Of a stretch of DNA of 64,000 nt, positions 1,828-13,891 are shown piece after piece. The notes beneath the pieces are model-generated. The model had not been told where the DNA came from and made no database searches. It worked only from the letters and a program-made list of their open reading frames with translations. Position 1 is the first letter of the stretch, and each line of letters opens with the position of its first letter. This DNA comes from Melghirimyces profundicolus. Its GTDB lineage: Bacteria; Bacillota; Bacilli; Thermoactinomycetales; DSM-45169. The position numbers were made by a program, and so were the translations under genes. The stretch lies in assembly GCF_003054245.1 (NCBI RefSeq), contig NZ_QBKR01000008.1, forward strand, positions 1 through 64,000, in the 5' to 3' direction.

Positions 1828-1841
1828 GTACGCTGACGTAC
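1828..1841. promoter_or_regulatory. Candidate operator palindrome upstream of the tetR gene
   Basis: GTACGCTGACGTAC is an inverted repeat (GTACG/CGTAC around CTGA) about 25 bases before the tetR start. It lies just downstream of a possible -10 element (TATCAT). TetR-family repressors often bind such palindromes in their own promoters, so this is a plausible autoregulatory site. The assignment is inferred from position and symmetry only. Confidence 0.4.
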
Positions 1842-1864: not shown

Positions 1865-2509
1865 ATGACAACCGACACAAAACAGCGGGAATATCTCCAT
1901 TCCCTCGATCAACTGCTCGGAGACAACCACCATGTCCCGGATCAGGAAAAGCGGCTCATTTCAGCCTCATTGGAAGCGCTTACGGAAAAAGGGTACATGG
2001 ATACCACGGTGGATGACATCGTTGCATGCGCCCGGGCATCCAAAAGCACCTTTTACAAGTACTTCCGCAACAAAGAAGCCGTCCTGATCCGGACCCTCCA
2101 CTTGCTGGTCGATGTCCTCATCAACAAAGTGGAAGAGGCGATCCGATCCCACCCCCCGACGACCAAACGTACATACCATGCGATCCGGACCTATATCGAA
2201 ACCTGTTTTATGCACCGGGAAGTCACGAAGTTGTTGATGGTGGATACCGTCGGCGTCGCGCCCTCGTTGGAAACCACCCGCCTGATGTTCCATCGGTACT
2301 TTTTCAATATCTTCCACCGGGAAATCAGCGAAGCGGTGCGGAAAAAGAACCTGTCGAACTGCGACCCCTGGGTACTGTCTTATGCCATGGTGGGCGCCGT
2401 TCAGGAGGTGATCATCCAGTCCATCATTCTGGAAACTCCCCCCGCTCCCCGTCATCTGGCGGAGGTATTGGAGGGGATGATGAGCCGTTCTCTGCGGCCG
2501 GAGGGTTAA
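1865..2509 (+). CDS. TetR/AcrR family transcriptional regulator
   Basis: A 214-residue regulator with a TetR-type helix-turn-helix at about residues 29-75, including the typical DDIVACARASKSTFYKYF pattern, followed by an all-helical ligand-binding and dimerisation region. It is the first gene of a co-directional cluster of six small membrane proteins whose first member starts 65 bases downstream. It probably controls that cluster, by analogy with other TetR genes next to envelope operons. Inverted repeats flank it on both sides (1828-1841 and 2513-2549). The ligand is unknown. Confidence 0.9.
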   Translation: MTTDTKQREYLHSLDQLLGDNHHVPDQEKRLISASLEALTEKGYMDTTVDDIVACARASKSTFYKYFRNKEAVLIRTLHLLVDVLINKVEEAIRSHPPTTKRTYHAIRTYIETCFMHREVTKLLMVDTVGVAPSLETTRLMFHRYFFNIFHREISEAVRKKNLSNCDPWVLSYAMVGAVQEVIIQSIILETPPAPRHLAEVLEGMMSRSLRPEG

Positions 2510-2512
2510 CCC

Positions 2513-2549
2513 ATACTCCTTATGGTGTATCTTCTTTCATAAGGCGTAT
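2513..2549. promoter_or_regulatory. Inverted repeat between tetR and the membrane-protein operon
   Basis: ATACTCCTTATG (2513-2524) and CATAAGGCGTAT (2538-2549) pair at 11 of 12 positions around a 13-base spacer. There is no T-tract, so it does not look like a terminator. It could be a split operator for the adjacent TetR protein or an mRNA hairpin ahead of the ribosome binding site at about 2559-2566. Confidence 0.4.
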
Positions 2550-2574
2550 ACCCGTGTAAAGGAGGGAGACCCCA

Positions 2575-3129
2575 TTGACCAAACCTGTCCGCGTCTTTTT
2601 GTTACTGGGCATCGTCGGCTTACTGGGTGTAGGAACTTGGGCGGCTGCCGGTCACAGCTCCTGGGCCGAAGAGCTTGAGGAGGTTCACCATAAGGCGGAT
2701 CTGAACGGAATGCTGGAGAAGATCGGTAAAAACAACGACCGTCTGGGAGCCAGCAACCAATCGATCCTCGGGAACCTTCAAGCCATTAATCAAAAGTCCC
2801 TGGTCACCAAAGACATCCACGGGAAGCTCAACAACGTCCGGTCCGGGCTCGGGGGCCAGAACTCCACCTTGACCGACATCGAAAAGGTGACGGGGCAACA
2901 GGTGGGACTGAGTAAGAACCTGAACAGCCTCAGTATTTTCCTGGAAGGGAAAATGAGCGTGATCAACGGGAGCACCGAATCCCAGATCAGCCAGGTGGGA
3001 AATCTCCGTTCCATCACGCTGGATACCCGTAAGAAAATGAAGTCGGTTCTCAATGAAAATGTGACGCTGGAGAAAAAACTGCGCTCTGCAGCGGAGAAAA
3101 GCAAACGGGCGGAACAATCGATGCCCTAA
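2575..3129 (+). CDS. Membrane-anchored helical protein 1 of the TetR-linked operon
   Basis: A 184-residue protein starting at TTG after a strong AAGGAGGG site. Residues 5-25 are a hydrophobic segment (signal anchor or signal peptide, with AAAG near its end). The rest is polar and rich in Asn, Gln, Lys and Leu, with heptad-like spacing suggesting an extended coiled coil. There are no cysteines. I recognise no named domain. It opens a run of five such proteins with the same layout, so it probably contributes one subunit to a shared envelope structure. That role is inference. Confidence 0.8.
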   Translation: MTKPVRVFLLLGIVGLLGVGTWAAAGHSSWAEELEEVHHKADLNGMLEKIGKNNDRLGASNQSILGNLQAINQKSLVTKDIHGKLNNVRSGLGGQNSTLTDIEKVTGQQVGLSKNLNSLSIFLEGKMSVINGSTESQISQVGNLRSITLDTRKKMKSVLNENVTLEKKLRSAAEKSKRAEQSMP

Positions 3130-3146
3130 AAAGGAGGGGAGCCACG

Positions 3147-3656
3147 ATGATCCGTAAAGTGCTTTCCATCCTTGGAATCCTCGTACTCGCCGGGTTCCTG
3201 ATCAACGGGGTGACCATGACCCAGAACATGAAAAAATTGCATGCGGGGTTGGAAGACAACCTGGAATCGACCGAAAAGCTGAATGACGTTCAGGCGGCGG
3301 TCATCGATAAAAACGAAGAGCTGAAGGGCATGTTGGTCACCGTCGACAAGGTCAACGGCAGCCTGGATGAGACCACGGACAAGACGGACCAAACCTTAGA
3401 ACTGCTCTCCCAGGTGGTGGATTACAACGCGGATACCCTGCGACTCAACAATCAGATGTTGAAATATTCCACCACTTCAGGCGAGAACATCAAAGCAGTC
3501 GGCCAATCCCTGAAGGAACTGTCTCCGTACATGGACCAACTGGATGCCATGTTGAAGGACCTGGACAAAACAGCGGCCAAGGATGAAAAACACCTCCGTG
3601 AAATCCTGAAGGCCACCAGAAGCCTCAATAACAAGACCCCGGGAGGGACGCCCTGA
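3147..3656 (+). CDS. Membrane-anchored helical protein 2 of the TetR-linked operon
   Basis: A 169-residue protein with a short positive N-terminus (MIRK), one transmembrane helix at about residues 5-23, then a long polar helical region with repeated leucines and Asp/Asn/Lys. It has no cysteines and no recognisable enzymatic motif. The start follows AAGGAGGGG. The stop codon overlaps the next start (ATGA at 3653-3656 region), so the two are translationally coupled. Predicted topology is N-in with the helical part outside. Function unknown. Confidence 0.8.
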   Translation: MIRKVLSILGILVLAGFLINGVTMTQNMKKLHAGLEDNLESTEKLNDVQAAVIDKNEELKGMLVTVDKVNGSLDETTDKTDQTLELLSQVVDYNADTLRLNNQMLKYSTTSGENIKAVGQSLKELSPYMDQLDAMLKDLDKTAAKDEKHLREILKATRSLNNKTPGGTP

Positions 3657-4192
3657 TGAAAGCCGCAATTGCCAAAATCAAGGTCGTCCCCGTCCTGATC
3701 ACCCTCCTGTTGGGGGCGGCTGCCGGAAACACCTGGCTCCAGGTTTGGATTCAACAGGACATCGCAAAAAAATCGGAAGTCTTGGAAACCAAACTGGGAG
3801 AATCCGCCGAGAAGTCGAAAAAAATGAACACTCAGCTGGCGGATGTGCAGAAGCTGAAACAGCAAACGGACAACCTGAACAAAAAAGTCACCGGGATTGA
3901 AAAAAACACCGCCGGTCTTGACAGAGAGCTGAAGGAGCTGGATCGGGTGGTCGCCACCATCGCCAAACGGGTCCACGCCATCAGCGGCAATACGGCCGTG
4001 ACGGAAAAAGACCTGAAATCGATCCAGGCGACCGTGGACAACAGCACCAAAGTGCTCCGTTCGATCCAGAACTCCAACGCCAATATCGTCAACACCCTGA
4101 ACACGATGGAGAAAATCCAGCTTGAGATCAACGCCAACCTGAAGGAGATCAACCGGAAGACCCGGGCTGTCCCGGAGAAGCCGAGGGGGTGA
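3656..4192 (+). CDS. Membrane-anchored helical protein 3 of the TetR-linked operon
   Basis: A 178-residue protein with an N-terminal hydrophobic segment (about residues 9-26), then a continuous charged helical region with regular leucine, isoleucine and valine spacing (NLNKKVTGIEKN is typical) predicting a coiled coil. No cysteines. It overlaps the preceding gene by one base and is followed four bases later by the next, so it is firmly inside the operon. No known domain is visible; MCE-type beta-barrel features are absent. Confidence 0.8.
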   Translation: MKAAIAKIKVVPVLITLLLGAAAGNTWLQVWIQQDIAKKSEVLETKLGESAEKSKKMNTQLADVQKLKQQTDNLNKKVTGIEKNTAGLDRELKELDRVVATIAKRVHAISGNTAVTEKDLKSIQATVDNSTKVLRSIQNSNANIVNTLNTMEKIQLEINANLKEINRKTRAVPEKPRG

Positions 4193-4196
4193 GCTT

Positions 4197-4979
4197 ATGT
4201 TAAAAAGGATTTGGGACCTGGCGATTTTCCATAAGAAAAAGGTGATCGCCGGGGCGGCCGCCATCACCCTTCTCTCCGTCTCCCCCGCTCTCGCCCGCTT
4301 CAGCGACGAAAAGGTTTTGCCGGCACTGTCGGAAAACAACATCTTCGGCCTCTTATCCGACCTCCAGGGCATGACGGGTGAGATGGTGGAGGACACCAAG
4401 GAGCTGGAAGACCAAGTCACCCAAGCGGAAAACGCCATGCAAGGCCTGGACCGGCAGGAAGCGCTGCTGAAAAAGCAGATTAACACTAACGAGGCCATCA
4501 AGGACGAACTGGATAAACAGCTCTCCGGCAACGTGGAGGCCCGGGGATTGATGGAAGCCATCCTGAAACGTGAGAAACAGACAGCCAAACTGACCGACAC
4601 CGCAGCTGCAAAAGGAAATGAAGTGACCGCCCAAATGACCGACACCGTGGCCAGCCTCGGGGTTACGGCGGATTATACCGGCAAGGTGGGGAATGCCACC
4701 GCCAAGACGAACAGCCGGATGGACCTGTTGCTCGCCGAGCTGGACCGGTCCGTGGAAAACTTCCGATACGTCGCCCTCGTTCCGCAGTTTTTAAGCAGTC
4801 TGAACAACCTCCCGGGACTGGACTCACCGGATACGGGCGATGATAAAAACCCTCCGACTCCATCCTCAAGGGAGGTGATTGACGACACCGTCAACTCCCT
4901 GACAGGAAAAGAAAGCGAAGGCCAACAGGATGAAGAGGATGGGGAAAGCAACGGATTGCTTTCCGACCTTCTACCCTGA
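4197..4979 (+). CDS. Exported helical protein 4 of the TetR-linked operon, with acidic tail
   Basis: The largest member, 260 residues. Residues 1-35 form a signal sequence: a positive start, a hydrophobic core, and SPALARF resembling an AxA signal peptidase I site. It may therefore be released or held by partners, unlike its neighbours. Residues 40-200 are helical, and the last 50 are rich in Asp, Glu, Ser and Pro, likely disordered. No cysteines. It sits tightly between two other helical membrane proteins. Function unknown. Confidence 0.8.
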   Translation: MLKRIWDLAIFHKKKVIAGAAAITLLSVSPALARFSDEKVLPALSENNIFGLLSDLQGMTGEMVEDTKELEDQVTQAENAMQGLDRQEALLKKQINTNEAIKDELDKQLSGNVEARGLMEAILKREKQTAKLTDTAAAKGNEVTAQMTDTVASLGVTADYTGKVGNATAKTNSRMDLLLAELDRSVENFRYVALVPQFLSSLNNLPGLDSPDTGDDKNPPTPSSREVIDDTVNSLTGKESEGQQDEEDGESNGLLSDLLP

Positions 4980-4999
4980 ATGAAAGGGGGTTTTGACCC

Positions 5000-5518
5000 A
5001 TGTGGGGTCGTACCCTGATCATCCTCATCAATCTCGTCTTCCTGGTGCTGATTGGAGTGGGAACCGCGAAACAGATCGAAACGCAGAAGGAGAACAACCA
5101 GGTGATGGCCGGTGTTCACGACAACATCAAAAAGGCCAAGGAACTGACCACGGAAACCAATGAAAAGCTGAAACCCCTCCGGGCCACCGCCGACACCATC
5201 GAAGAGATGAACGGCAAACTGGTCCGCACCAAGACGATGCTGACCGGCATGAATCAAAACCTTGCCGGTGTGATCAACAGTGAAACGAAGATCGTCCATG
5301 GTCTGGACGAATTGAACCGAAACACCACCCAAGTCATTCAACAGCTGGATGGGGTGAAGCAGAAGAACGCGGCCTTGCTCGGTCCGGCCAAAACCGTGGC
5401 GAAGCAGACGGGCACGGAATACGGAACCATCGAACGGCTGTATAGCCTGACCGGGATTTCGATTCGTGAGCTGGCGGAGATCAACAATAAATTCGGTTGG
5501 CTGAATGTCAACTATTAG
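5000..5518 (+). CDS. Membrane-anchored helical protein 5 of the TetR-linked operon
   Basis: A 172-residue protein with a clear transmembrane helix at residues 5-22 and a polar helical region up to about residue 130. The C-terminus (about 135-172) looks more globular, ending FGWLNVNY. No cysteines. Start follows AAAGGGGG. Overall layout repeats that of proteins 1-3, suggesting ancient duplication followed by strong divergence; the similarity is in architecture rather than obvious sequence identity. Confidence 0.8.
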   Translation: MWGRTLIILINLVFLVLIGVGTAKQIETQKENNQVMAGVHDNIKKAKELTTETNEKLKPLRATADTIEEMNGKLVRTKTMLTGMNQNLAGVINSETKIVHGLDELNRNTTQVIQQLDGVKQKNAALLGPAKTVAKQTGTEYGTIERLYSLTGISIRELAEINNKFGWLNVNY

Positions 5519-5526
5519 GAGAAGCC

Positions 5527-5694
5527 ATGTTTTTCAGCGTACTTTACCTGATCACCATCGTCGGCATCCTCGTCTTTTCCGGCCTTGCCATCGCCGCCAT
5601 TATCCGGAACCGGGCCGTTACCCGTTGGCTGGCCGGCCTCGCCGGGGTGACATTGTTCTACATCCTTGCGGTTTGGATCACGGCCATGACCTAA
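5527..5694 (+). CDS. Small two-helix membrane protein closing the TetR-linked operon
   Basis: A 55-residue protein made almost wholly of two transmembrane helices (about residues 3-24 and 34-53) joined by a short positive loop (RNRAVTR). The ATG at 5527 follows AGGAGA that overlaps the preceding stop codon, which argues for coupled translation. A longer upstream start lacks a ribosome site. It may be a membrane scaffold or assembly factor for the anchored proteins encoded before it. That is inference from size and context. Confidence 0.75.
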   Translation: MFFSVLYLITIVGILVFSGLAIAAIIRNRAVTRWLAGLAGVTLFYILAVWITAMT

Positions 5695-5696
5695 AA

Positions 5697-5743
5697 ACAT
5701 CAAGGAAAGACCCGCCCGTATGATGGGCGGGTCTTTCCTTGAT
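5697..5743. terminator. Bidirectional terminator between the operon and perR
   Basis: Near-perfect inverted repeat with arms CATCAAGGAAAGACCCGCCC and its complement around a 7-base loop, between two convergent genes. It can serve both the plus-strand operon and the minus-strand perR gene. Confidence 0.85.
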
Positions 5744-5749
5744 GGTGGA

Positions 5750-6257: not shown

Positions 6258-6938
6258 CTACTGCCCTTTCCGGGATTTTGTCAACGGTTCTTCCTGATTC
6301 CGGTTCTTTCCGTACCAGCAACAGGGGAAAAGGTCGCACCGTTCACACTTGGGATTGCGGGCTGTACAGATCCTGCGTCCGTGCCAGATGAGCCGGTGAT
6401 GAGTGATGGTCCATTCCTTCCGCGGGATCCTCTTGGTCAGCTGTTTTTCCGTTTCCAGCGGGTTACTGCTGTCCGCCAAGGCCAGTCGGTTGGAAACCCG
6501 TTGGACATGGGTGTCCACTGCCAGGGCCGGCACACCGAAGGCGTTTGACAGCACCACGTTGGCCGTTTTTCTCCCCACCCCGGGAAGTTCTTCCAGCGCT
6601 TCTCTTTGAGCCGGCACTTTTCCGTTGTATTTTTCCACAAGTATTTGACAGGTTGCTAAGATATTGCGGCTTTTATTCCGGTACAGGCCCAACCCACGAA
6701 TTTCCTCCGCCAGCTCCTCTTCGGTCAGTTGCAGGATCTCTTCGGGGCCGGGATATTTGGCAAACAGCTTGTCTGTCACGATGTTCACCTGGCGGTCGGT
6801 GGACTGGGCAGACAGAATGGTGGCAATCAACAATTCGAAGGGGTTCCGGTAATTCAGTTCACAATGGGCGTCGGGATACATATCGGCCAATGTGTCCAAG
6901 ATTTTTCTGGTGGGTACGCGTTTGGGTTTTTCTTTCAT
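6258..6938 (-). CDS. nth: Endonuclease III
   Basis: A 226-residue bifunctional DNA glycosylase/AP lyase for oxidised pyrimidines. The helix-hairpin-helix [12 protein letters not shown] carries the catalytic Lys124, and Asp142 lies in [10 protein letters not shown]. Four cysteines at 191, 198, 201 and 207 fit the C-x6-C-x2-C-x5-C iron-sulphur motif. Length is normal for the family. It begins 15 bases after the upstream dehydrogenase gene, so it is probably the last gene of a three-gene unit. Confidence 0.96.
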
Positions 6939-6953
6939 CGTCTTCCTCCCCCT

Positions 6954-7907
6954 TCAGTATCCCCGGTCCGGGTCGAGAAGATTGACAACCTTCCCCTCCC
7001 CCGAAAGATACACGACGAGATTGCGATGAAACAGTTCCAGTGCCCGGGTCATGTACATCGGAGAGCGGCCCGATACGTGGGGGGTAATCAACAGGTTGTC
7101 CAAATTCCAAAAAGGATGTTCCTTCGGCAGGGGTTCTTGTTCAAACACATCCAAAACCGCGCCGCCGATCCGGCGGTGGGTGAGTGCGTTCAGGAGTGCT
7201 TCTTCGTCCACCACCGCTCCTCGGGCCATATTGATCAGGCAGGCGGTCGGCTTCATCCAGCCAAGCTCTTCCTCGCCGATCAACCCACGGGTTTGATGCG
7301 TGAGGGGCAGCGTGACCACCACGAAGTCCGAACGTTTCAGGATGGATTTCAGTTCTTCGGGACCGGCCATCTCATCAAACCCGTCCATAGGAGTTCCGGA
7401 CGTGTTCATACCCAGTACCGTGACGTCAAAAGCTTTCAGCCGCTTGGCAATTCCTCTGCCGATCGCTCCCGCACCCAGGATGGCGACGGTTTTTCCCGCC
7501 AGTTCCGACACTCTGAGACTCCGGTCCCATTTTCGTTCCCTCTGACGGTCCACGAATTGATGAAGACGGCGGGTCCACTGGAGGATGACGGCCAGTGCGT
7601 ACTCCCCCATCGGAATGGCATGGATGCCCCGGGAGTTGGTGACCATCACCTTCCTTTTTTTGAGTGCATCAAAGGGAAGCAGTTCCACCCCCGCGCTGAT
7701 CACATGGACCCAACGAAGATTGGAAAGACGGGGAATATTGTCGGGCGTTAAGTCTTCCCCGTAGGTAATCAGGACTTCGGCTTCGGGTGCAGCGTCCAGC
7801 ACCTCCCCGATCTCTTCAAAAAAGGAAAACCGGACTTGTGGAAACGCCTCCCTCAATCGCCTTTGGTGCTTTTCACTGATCCTGGCGGAAGAAGTGACAT
7901 GAGTCAT
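6954..7907 (-). CDS. D-isomer-specific 2-hydroxyacid dehydrogenase
   Basis: A 317-residue NAD(P)-dependent oxidoreductase. The Rossmann motif is GAGAIGRG at about residues 145-152. The catalytic triad of the family is visible as Arg229 (NMARGAVVD), Glu258 (FEQEPLP) and His277 (TPHVSG). The substrate cannot be read from sequence; family members act on 2-oxo and 2-hydroxy acids such as glyoxylate, hydroxypyruvate or phosphoglycerate. The start overlaps the stop of the upstream methyltransferase by four bases, implying translational coupling. Confidence 0.9.
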   Translation of the reverse strand: MTHVTSSARISEKHQRRLREAFPQVRFSFFEEIGEVLDAAPEAEVLITYGEDLTPDNIPRLSNLRWVHVISAGVELLPFDALKKRKVMVTNSRGIHAIPMGEYALAVILQWTRRLHQFVDRQRERKWDRSLRVSELAGKTVAILGAGAIGRGIAKRLKAFDVTVLGMNTSGTPMDGFDEMAGPEELKSILKRSDFVVVTLPLTHQTRGLIGEEELGWMKPTACLINMARGAVVDEEALLNALTHRRIGGAVLDVFEQEPLPKEHPFWNLDNLLITPHVSGRSPMYMTRALELFHRNLVVYLSGEGKVVNLLDPDRGY

Positions 7908-8686
7908 CTCCCATCCTCTCCTTTCTCCGGTCCCTGCGATCTCGCTTCCACCACCAACTCGCCGCTTTCCGGTCCGAAAGGCTCCCGGCGGAACCCTCCG
8001 AAACAGTGGACCACTTCAAACCCGGCGAGATTCAACAGGTGAAACAACTCGGTTGGAAAAACGTAACGGATGGAAAAACGGGTCCGCAATCGTTCAAGAG
8101 AGACTCCGTCAGGTGCGAACCGTTCATAGTAGCGGGTAACATTCGCCCGTTGGTAAAAATGTTCGTATTCCGTGTAATCGAAGACTTCTATCGTCTCTTT
8201 CGTACCGGGGACGGGAAAGTGCCCCCGGTGGACATAGCGTTCCTCCTCTTCCGCCATTTGGGAAAGATCGGGAACAAAAACATTGAAAGCCAAGATCCCC
8301 CCCTCCGTCAAGTGCTCCTTCACTTTGCGGAGGGTGGCCATTTGGTCCTTGACTCGAAGGAGATGAAGAAAGGAACGGTACGGAATCAACACCAAGGGAA
8401 ACTCCCGCTTCAGTTCCAGTTCCCTCATATCCCCACACACCCATTGGCAACGGTCGGACAATCCCATCGCTTTCGCTTTTTTCTCGGCCATTCGGATCAT
8501 CTCGGGTTGAAGATCCACTCCCACCACCTCCATCCCGTGACGGGCGATGCCGAGAGTGCAACGTCCGGTTCCGCAACCCAGTTCCAAAACGGGGCCACCC
8601 GACTCCATGGAAAGATGGGCATAATAGGCCACGTCCCCGTCCAACCCCTCGGAAGTCCAGTCGTAATAATCCGGCCAGCGGTACAT
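7904..8686 (-). CDS. Class I SAM-dependent methyltransferase
   Basis: A 260-residue protein with the SAM-binding motif I VLELGCGTGRCTLGIA near residue 35, the acidic motif II VVGVDLQ and a motif resembling IV/V (CGDMRELEL, then LVLIPYRSFLHLL). The substrate is unknown. The ATG at 8686 (MYRWPDYYDW) has GGGAGA at good spacing; the reading frame extends further upstream but crosses the terminator of bcp, so the longer start is unlikely. It overlaps the downstream dehydrogenase by four bases. Confidence 0.85.
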   Translation of the reverse strand: MYRWPDYYDWTSEGLDGDVAYYAHLSMESGGPVLELGCGTGRCTLGIARHGMEVVGVDLQPEMIRMAEKKAKAMGLSDRCQWVCGDMRELELKREFPLVLIPYRSFLHLLRVKDQMATLRKVKEHLTEGGILAFNVFVPDLSQMAEEEERYVHRGHFPVPGTKETIEVFDYTEYEHFYQRANVTRYYERFAPDGVSLERLRTRFSIRYVFPTELFHLLNLAGFEVVHCFGGFRREPFGPESGELVVEARSQGPEKGEDGR

Positions 8687-8725
8687 ATTGTCTCCCGTCA
8701 AAGGCAACCCTCCCGTCATCCAGCA

Positions 8726-8757
8726 AAGAAGGGTTGAAGATCCACCTCCTTCAACCC
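8726..8757 (-). terminator. Terminator after bcp
   Basis: On the minus strand GGGTTGAAG pairs with CTTCAACCC and is followed by TTCTTT, about 25 bases after the bcp stop codon. Its position also sets the upstream limit for the methyltransferase gene start. Confidence 0.7.
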
Positions 8758-8781
8758 CTCCCGCAGATGCGAATGATTTAC

Positions 8782-9252
8782 TTATTTCAGGTTCTCCCGA
8801 ATCCACTTCAGGGCTTCGTCCACATGACCGTCGACTTTGACTTTCCTCCATACTTTGGCGATGGTGCCTTTTTGATCGATGATGAAAGTGGATCTTTCAA
8901 TCCCGAGTTTCTTTTTACCGAACACGTTTTTCTCCTTGTACACCCCGTATTTTTTCGAAATCTCCGCCTCCGTGTCGCTGAGGAGGAGAAACGGCAGGTT
9001 ATATTTTTGAATGAATTTTTCGTGGGATTCAAGATCGTCCAGGCTGACACCGAGAATCACCGTGTTCAGGTCCGAAAAATCCTTCTCTCGATCCCGAAAG
9101 TCACAGGATTCGGCGGTGCATCCCGGTGTGTTGTCCTTCGGGTAAAAGTAAAGGACCACGTTTTTGTCACCCCGGTAGTCGGACAGGGACACATTCTCTC
9201 CGTTGGATGCAGGCAAAGTGAAATCGGGTGCCTGATCGCCTTCCTTGATCAT
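8782..9252 (-). CDS. bcp: Thioredoxin-dependent thiol peroxidase (Bcp/PrxQ peroxiredoxin)
   Basis: A 156-residue atypical two-cysteine peroxiredoxin. The peroxidatic Cys45 lies in [10 protein letters not shown] and the resolving Cys50 is five residues later, the Bcp/PrxQ arrangement. It reduces hydroperoxides in the cytoplasm with thioredoxin. GGAGGTG precedes the ATG. It has its own terminator. PerR control would be reasonable because perR lies nearby, but no clear PerR box is visible in front of it. Confidence 0.95.
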
Positions 9253-12670: not shown

Positions 12671-13664
12671 GGGCCGCTCCCTCCCGGTAGATCCGCCGGA
12701 CGATGTCCTCCGTGGTCGCCTCCTCAATCTTCAATTCCTGTACAGCCACGGCGGGCACCAGACGGGAGAGAACGTCGGACACCGTCGTTCCCTTCTCCAG
12801 ACGCGCCGTGTAACGGGTGCCTTCCCCTTCCCATTTCACGGAAAGACCCCGGGTTTTTTCATTGAGGACAAAGGACGGAACCTCCTCCTTCAGTTCCAGG
12901 ATCAAACGCCGCCCGTCGCCCCATTGGGTCCGGAGTCGTTCCAGGTCCCCGTCGTAGATGATATTCCCCTTGTCCAACATCACCACCCGGGAACAAAGCG
13001 CCTCAATATCGGACAGATCGTGAGTCGTCAAAAGAATCGTGGTTCCGTATTCGGCGTTGACCTGTTTGAGAAATCGGCGGATATTCTCCTTAACCAACAC
13101 ATCCAGACCGATGGTGGGTTCGTCCAGGAAGAGCAACCGCGGCTGATGCAAAAGGGCGGCCGCCAGCTCACACCGCATCCGCTGCCCCAGGCTCAACTTG
13201 CGCACCGGCTGATCGAGGAATGGACCGATCTCCAGAACTTCCACCAGCCGATCCAAATGCTGCCGGTATCCTTCCCCGGAAAGCCGGTAGAGCTTTTTCA
13301 GGAGACGGAAGGACTCCTTCACCGCAATGTCCCACCACAACTGGCTTCTCTGCCCGAACACCACACCGATGGTTCGGACAAATTCTTCCCTTTCCCGGTG
13401 GGGGTCGTACCCGTTCACCCGAAGGCAGCCTCCCGTGGGTTCCAGAATGCCGGTCAGCATCTTGATGGTGGTGGATTTGCCGGCTCCGTTCTCCCCGATG
13501 TATCCGACGATTTCACCCGGTTCGATGGTCAGGTCGATCCCGTTTACCGCACGGATCGTGCGGTATTGCCGGTTGAAAAGATCCCGAAAGGCGCCCGTCA
13601 AACCGGACCGGCTCTGATAAACCTTGAATTCCTTTGTCAGCCCGCGGGCTTCAATACTCCGCAT
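12663..13664 (-). CDS. ABC transporter ATP-binding protein
   Basis: A 333-residue ATPase with Walker A GENGAGKST (about residues 56-64), signature LSLGQRMR, Walker B LLFLDEPTIGLD and a switch histidine in LLTTHDLSD. The C-terminal 90 residues form an extra domain seen in ABC-2 exporter ATPases of the NatA/CcmA-like type. It is the first gene of a three-gene operon with two permeases. Confidence 0.93.
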   Translation of the reverse strand: MRSIEARGLTKEFKVYQSRSGLTGAFRDLFNRQYRTIRAVNGIDLTIEPGEIVGYIGENGAGKSTTIKMLTGILEPTGGCLRVNGYDPHREREEFVRTIGVVFGQRSQLWWDIAVKESFRLLKKLYRLSGEGYRQHLDRLVEVLEIGPFLDQPVRKLSLGQRMRCELAAALLHQPRLLFLDEPTIGLDVLVKENIRRFLKQVNAEYGTTILLTTHDLSDIEALCSRVVMLDKGNIIYDGDLERLRTQWGDGRRLILELKEEVPSFVLNEKTRGLSVKWEGEGTRYTARLEKGTTVSDVLSRLVPAVAVQELKIEEATTEDIVRRIYREGAAHA

Positions 13665-13855
13665 CTTCTACCACTCCCCGGTGCTCCCGCCCACAAAAAG
13701 GCACCCCAAAACCTGGGATGCCCGTTCCGCGGTGTGGGCGAACTCCGATTTATACCGAATCGTTCCTACGAAATGGAAACCGTTCTTCAACCGCTTTATA
13801 TGTTAACACACTTCCGGTAAACCGGCGAGGCTCCTGACATGGGCCATCCGCCCAT

Positions 13856-13891
13856 CAAAAAGACGGCAGGAAATATTCCTGCCGCCAACGG
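13856..13891 (-). terminator. Terminator after the tandem Spo0M gene
   Basis: GGCAGGAATATTTCCTGCC hairpin followed on the minus strand by GTCTTTTTG, about 25 bases after the stop codon. Confidence 0.8.

Follow-up and report, generated by a model that had tools for sequence, protein, structure and literature searches.

Near the start of the window, by which I mean the whole 64,000-nucleotide stretch analysed here (Melghirimyces profundicolus, assembly GCF_003054245.1, contig NZ_QBKR01000008.1, positions 1 to 64,000), lies an operon that comprises a TetR-family regulator, five helical membrane-anchored proteins named A to E in operon order, and a small protein, F, that follows E. The operon is real and conserved: A-B-C-D-E were all recognisable, on one strand and in the same order, in 34 of the 35 loci compared (B being broken in two), and a long-chain acyl-CoA synthetase (FadD) is part of the operon in 24 of the 35. 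The link of the operon to FadD is strong, and the operon as a whole suggests an undescribed Gram-positive machine for the uptake and activation of fatty acids. This link to fatty acids was hidden from the sequence-only reading, an earlier account drawn from the letters of the window, because the genome of the window has no FadD in the operon. The claim of that reading that the genes form a distinct system is supported, and the system is conserved.

Conservation of the operon and its link to FadD

The 35 loci are the window, 15 other genomes that encode E, and 19 more taken from the matches of a B profile, which was found in 42 of the 398 genomes of the class; eight of these 42 (G114, G140, G142, G147, G268, G331, G354 and G370) were left out as partial matches. 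Carriers of the operon bear the names Marinithermofilum, Melghirimyces, Paenactinomyces, Marininema, Thermoactinomyces and Lihuaxuella, together with a Bacillota bin, and in several of them the operon sits at another genomic place. Gene order across relatives had been set by the sequence-only reading as a check on itself, and that order was not lost. F was present in 14 of the 15 loci from the taxonomic order of the window (it is missing from L020), and elsewhere gave one doubtful match, in L085 (4e-3). A C profile run against 398 genomes of the phylum matched 26, at full length only in its own genome, in a limited test where 15 of the 46 genomes listed belong to the class of the window besides its own.

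Individual genes are damaged in a few loci. B is split into two overlapping frames in L019 and is just 66 aa long in L102, C is shortened to 155 aa in L030, and L101 (genome G091, 6765-9185) is a decayed copy of the operon that holds fragments of fadD, A, B, C and E. In Melghirimyces thermohalophilus (L048/L019) the split B is accompanied by a TetR gene reduced to a 92-aa fragment, reflecting either decay or an assembly error. L084 has an extra helical frame of 184 aa at 13315-13869, about 3 kb downstream of E, which resembles C and E (3e-8) and has no anchor.

Across the 35 loci, FadD is a separate gene before A in 12, is fused to A through a transmembrane (TM) segment in another 12, is absent beside A-E in ten, and is present as fragments in one. 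Each of the 12 fusions is a single open frame of FadD, one membrane helix and A. The net charge before this helix is positive in 11 of the 12 and zero in L091; because of this positive charge before the helix and the cytosolic nature of the enzyme, FadD would lie inside and A outside. The separate FadDs carry a C-terminal TM segment above the threshold of 1.6 in ten of 12 cases, with weaker hydrophobic ends in L033 (1.42) and L088 (1.31). Of the 22 operon FadDs covered by the test, all but that of L025 retain the AMP-binding motif TSGT[TS]GxPK; the two cut by contig ends (the L095 fusion and the separate FadD of L028) lie outside this set. Three operon FadDs scanned against PF00501 matched at 1.1e-82, 4.8e-84 and 3.6e-85. 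In Thermoactinomyces daqus, A-F are followed by genes for TetR, an acyl-CoA dehydrogenase, FadD, a short-chain dehydrogenase (SDR), a thiolase and an enoyl-CoA hydratase (ECH).

The operons with no FadD beside A-E, ten of the 34 with five genes, are those of the window, L019, L026, L030, L031, L032, L084, L085, L087 and L090. An S-layer-homology (SLH) protein takes the place of FadD before A in L084 (5708-7030) and L085 (8723-10219), which represent two families; by eye, the two SLH proteins are similar also outside their SLH repeats. In the genome of the window the best FadD match is on contig C23 and is untethered; nearby are a TetR relative (7e-41) and genes for a thiolase, an enoyl-CoA hydratase and a CoA-transferase.

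Heptads and paralogy of A to E

In each of the A-E families, heptads follow a hydrophobic segment at the N-terminus. The hydrophobicity of all five family profiles has a period of 3.48-3.50 residues with a power of 17-24, exceeding in every family the best of 500 shuffles (8-10). Profiles were compared with L101 omitted, along with B of L019, C of L030 and D of L031 and L032; the block-shuffled comparison also omitted members far from the median length, leaving 33 sequences of A, 32 of B, 33 of C, 30 of D and 34 of E. In these comparisons C and E are clear paralogues, since hhalign aligns them over their length (171 columns, E=1.1e-12), and A and B are probable paralogues: the hhalign probability is 95-96% for A-B, A-C, B-C and B-E, and 83% for A-E. 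D gives 55-80% with B, C and E, and 94% with A over just a 52-column N-terminal stretch, so its paralogy to the others is doubtful. For all ten pairs the observed score lay above those of all 30 block-shuffled controls; reversed-profile controls in an earlier round of comparison scored 4-69%. The sequence-only reading had called the anchored proteins paralogous, which stands strongly for C-E and well for A-B, A-C, B-C and B-E, and is weak for D.

The AlphaFold2 model of E is one helix from residue 2 to 171 (mean pLDDT 80), and that of D is a long helix followed by a low-confidence tail (Table 1). At 1.5 Å per residue, helices of this kind would extend 20 nm or more. As the set of five is kept, A-E may form one hetero-oligomer; together with the heptads and the partial paralogy, this agrees with the earlier proposal that the anchored helical proteins assemble together, which they probably do.

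A proline stands at the C-terminus of A in 32/34 members, of E in 32/34, of D in 18/32, of C in 14/33 and of B in 10/32, against a background of 20/350 among other long frames in the same loci. In A and E this proline follows a hydrophobic residue, and the resulting hydrophobic-proline end is a possible recognition tail. The terminal proline is missing in E of the window (end 5518) and in E of L019.

A proposed machine for fatty-acid uptake and the alternatives to it

According to the mechanism I propose, A-E would be five subunits of one outward-facing, membrane-anchored, hetero-oligomeric coiled-coil assembly that is coupled to FadD and acquires and activates exogenous fatty acids, a reading about evenly poised between right and wrong. 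A rod or tube would collect the fatty acid or guide it across the wall zone to the membrane. FadD, which a membrane helix would hold below the assembly in many relatives and which shares a polypeptide with A in 12 loci, would then trap the acid inside as acyl-CoA (vectorial acylation) and feed beta-oxidation. Such vectorial acylation of incoming long-chain acids at the inner membrane is ascribed to E. coli FadD in the excerpted text of PMC9329746. A TetR-family repressor would control the operon via a GTACG-N4-CGTAC operator, and in the species of the window, where an operon FadD is missing, the untethered FadD of C23 would have to serve. I infer that A-E bind one another, that their helices face outside, that a fatty acid is the substrate, that it moves inward, and that TetR represses the operon. 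Only tentatively would I go as far as an MCE-independent uptake machine of monoderms, in which a heteropentameric A-E conduit of about 20 nm leads to a tethered FadD and acylation alone powers import, with no permease or ATPase.

Several observations weigh against the proposal, and the ten operons that lack FadD are the main evidence that FadD is not obligatory. The best FadD matches (E<=1e-60) in those ten genomes have no C-terminal TM segment, and G209 and G123, where the operon lacks FadD, have no FadD match at that level. In the FadD tree neither the fused nor the separate operon FadDs form one clade. The topology was assigned from hydrophobicity and charge, with a charge bias that is modest in some fusions and weak in C, D and E of the window. 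Many residues at the a and d core positions are polar, giving no obviously greasy channel. D shows only a weak relationship to B, C and E; in the B-D pair the reversed control gave a higher score than the genuine profile. The models of D and E are of single chains (pTM 0.24 and 0.31) and have no bearing on assembly. Finally, because the operon encodes no permease or ATPase, import would have to be driven by acylation alone.

The coupling to FadD fits equally with recycling or remodelling of envelope lipids, in which fatty acids set free from the membrane, lipoteichoic acid or lipoproteins of the same cell would be gathered and turned into acyl-CoA, or lipids would be moved outward; for Mce1, the excerpted text of PMC9882608 considers a possible part in mycolic acid recycling. 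However, in T. daqus the operon adjoins a beta-oxidation cluster, which speaks for catabolism (family annotation of neighbours covered a few loci), and I regard recycling as doubtful. The FadD-free operons, along with the long heptad rods and the SLH partner in two families, would also suit a structural scaffold, in which A-E rods or membrane microdomains would give the envelope its shape or spacing and FadD would simply be stationed there. From a scaffold, though, one would not expect 12 fusions to an enzyme with a kept active-site motif, nor a dedicated TetR, and this explanation seems rather unlikely.

The layout, which resembles that of mce1, could instead be that of a divergent MCE system that lost its MCE domain and kept a helical needle, and there are sub-threshold matches to the helical portions of two Mce models, TIGR00996 (6.6e-4 for B of the window, 2.9e-5 for one D) and Mce4_CUP1 (0.0023 for one E). 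Yet SMC and other coiled-coil models match equally well, and neither the MCE/MlaD domain (PF02470) nor the YrbE/MlaE permease (PF02405) was found in any of the 33 operon-bearing genomes, in searches where the positive controls matched in 4 of 14; nor is MCE/MlaD among the matches listed for A-F. A divergent MCE system is thus improbable, and membership in the mce operons is rejected despite the layout, just as the sequence-only reading had described an mce-like arrangement with neither MCE domain nor YrbE permease. A sensory or signalling complex, with FadD as its output or ligand-processing module, could be hinted at by MCPsignal, which matched three of the 15 B proteins (E<=0.01; best value 6.1e-4). 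The cut-off of that model is 34.6 bits, however, and B of the window reaches 18; many coiled-coil models of unrelated kinds do equally well, and no HAMP, kinase or sensor domain is among the Pfam and NCBIfam matches listed for the window proteins. I consider signalling very improbable.

Other identities were tried and set aside. Matches to chemoreceptor, tape-measure, SMC, syntaxin and NheC/NheB models are of a generic coiled-coil kind and fall under the curated cut-offs where these exist; the JetC/LmuB/PbeC models (best 2.2e-5) are of the same generic type. Among PDB matches, designed coiled coils, chemoreceptors and viral fusion proteins lead, and indicate 'coiled coil' alone. No PHROG match to phage tail or lysis proteins was convincing (best 0.0013 over A-F). 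Confident hits to MCE, methyl-accepting chemotaxis or phage tail proteins, which the sequence-only reading had named as grounds for giving up its view, were not seen. It had also found no recognised domain in A-F, and indeed no listed match exceeds a curated cut-off of Pfam or NCBIfam (for C, among the best 25 matches).

Comparison with known systems

The presence of a FadD gene in the operons of relatives gives the comparison with mce a functional basis. As far as the excerpted texts of PMC1810536 and PMC9882608 go, the mycobacterial mce1 operon includes fadD5 and a FadR-like regulator, the helices of six Mce1 subunits form a needle, and a lipid acid is the proposed substrate; the A-E operon likewise combines a regulator, an acyl-CoA synthetase gene and several different anchored long-helix subunits. 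In contrast to mce1, it lacks the MCE domain and the YrbE permease, its subunits are heptad rods of 170-260 aa, its hosts are Bacilli relatives, and 24 of the 35 loci have a FadD that is tethered or fused, while no FadD5 was seen in the Mce1 complex. The E. coli FadL/FadD pair is similar in that FadD activates the incoming long-chain acid at the inner membrane (excerpted text of PMC9329746), and differs in that FadL is an outer-membrane barrel, while the operon FadD carries a membrane helix of its own and is coupled to coiled coils. Proteins of the DUF948/DivIC/FliJ type share the short N-terminal anchor and coiled coil, with weak matches for E and B, although these are below cut-off and occur in some family members only.

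If the proposal is true, the A-E operon would be an MCE-free counterpart to the mycobacterial mce1 layout. No dedicated envelope machine is known to convey long-chain fatty acids across the Gram-positive wall to an acyl-CoA synthetase. The open-licence papers listed in literature searches, as judged by title and abstract opening, neither name such a machine nor describe the A-E operon. This conserved operon of five coiled-coil subunits, which 12 relatives have fused to FadD, is a concrete candidate for knock-out.

The regulator and its candidate operator

The window's regulator belongs to the TetR family (TetR_N helix-turn-helix, 46.2 bits against a cut-off of 24), and relatives of it stand at the head of the operon in L020, L027, L029, L030, L031 and L084, as well as in L019 as the fragment mentioned above. 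Its best NCBIfam match is Bacillus FadR (NF053878), to which it scores 48.8 bits, far below the 200-bit cut-off; the candidate operator is presumably unlike the B. subtilis FadR site.

That operator, GTACGNNNNCGTAC (GTACG-N4-CGTAC), lies directly downstream of a weak -10 element (TATCAT, 1818-1823) that was read by eye and was not found by a promoter scan, and it is the sole exact copy in the 3.77-Mb genome. Exact searches in eight genomes placed a copy at the operon in five, in four of which it is the sole copy; besides the window these are G022, G027 and G033, and G013 has two copies, one of them at the operon. The single copies in G003, G014 and G018 are away from the operon, near short frames that are uninformative. 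A backward control pattern occurs one to five times per genome, so the exact motif is not enriched genome-wide and its placement alone is telling. The shorter form TACGNNNNCGTA (TACG-N4-CGTA) sits at the beginning of the TetR frame, or close to it, in seven of the eight TetR-bearing loci (not in L020) and upstream of FadD in L023; it also occurs once each in L086, L089, L093, L101 and L102, away from the operon start. On C23 it is found (L083, 9521-9532) about 18 bp before the TetR gene near the FadD/thiolase/ECH cluster, so this cluster is possibly under shared control with the window operon, to judge by the motif. Control of the operon by TetR, as the sequence-only reading had it, is plausible.

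Layout of the operon and minor features

The operon lies at the start of contig C8, in a genus shared with G001. The sequence-only reading had listed a TetR gene, five anchored helical proteins of 169-260 residues and a 55-residue two-helix protein, all of which are present (Table 1). The gaps that it had called short or overlapping measure, in order from TetR to F, 65, 17, -1 (an overlap), 4, 20 and 8 bp.

Table 1. Features of the operon region, in coordinates of the window
Feature	Position	Strand	Remark
Candidate TetR operator GTACGCTGACGTAC	1828-1841		Directly downstream of weak -10
TetR-family regulator	1865-2509	+	Pfam TetR_N 3.8e-12
Imperfect inverted repeat, TetR-A gap	2513-2549	+	By eye; 7-bp core also from palindrome scan
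A, 184 aa, TTG start, N-terminal TM and heptad coiled coil	2575-3129	+	FadD-fused in 12 relatives
B, 169 aa, N-terminal TM and heptad coiled coil	3147-3656	+	
C, 178 aa, N-terminal TM and heptad coiled coil; clear paralogue of E	3656-4192	+	
D, 260 aa, N-terminal TM, long helix 49-203 in model, low-confidence tail ending LLP	4197-4979	+	
E, 172 aa, N-terminal TM and one continuous helix in model	5000-5518	+	
F, 55 aa, two hydrophobic segments	5527-5694	+	
Strong hairpin between operon and convergent perR	5698-5744		T-run on minus strand

The operon is flanked by ygzB (DUF2614) on one side and by perR on the other. Loci of perR were taken from 13 relatives with no B or E match: in L132, L133 and L135, of the same family, perR has a ygzB match some 60-470 bp away and the interval contains none of A-F, and in the other ten, which are short, no ygzB was seen. 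The terminator reported after the operon exists as a hairpin, but it chiefly fits perR, because its T-run is on the minus strand; the plus strand there has just one six-pair terminator-like site. Likewise, A-F of the window are free of Cys as claimed (its TetR has three), but this is no family trait, because three to nine members of each of these families carry Cys. By eye, the inverted repeat after the TetR gene has 12-base arms with 11 pairs, and it occupies the gap that holds fadD in relatives.

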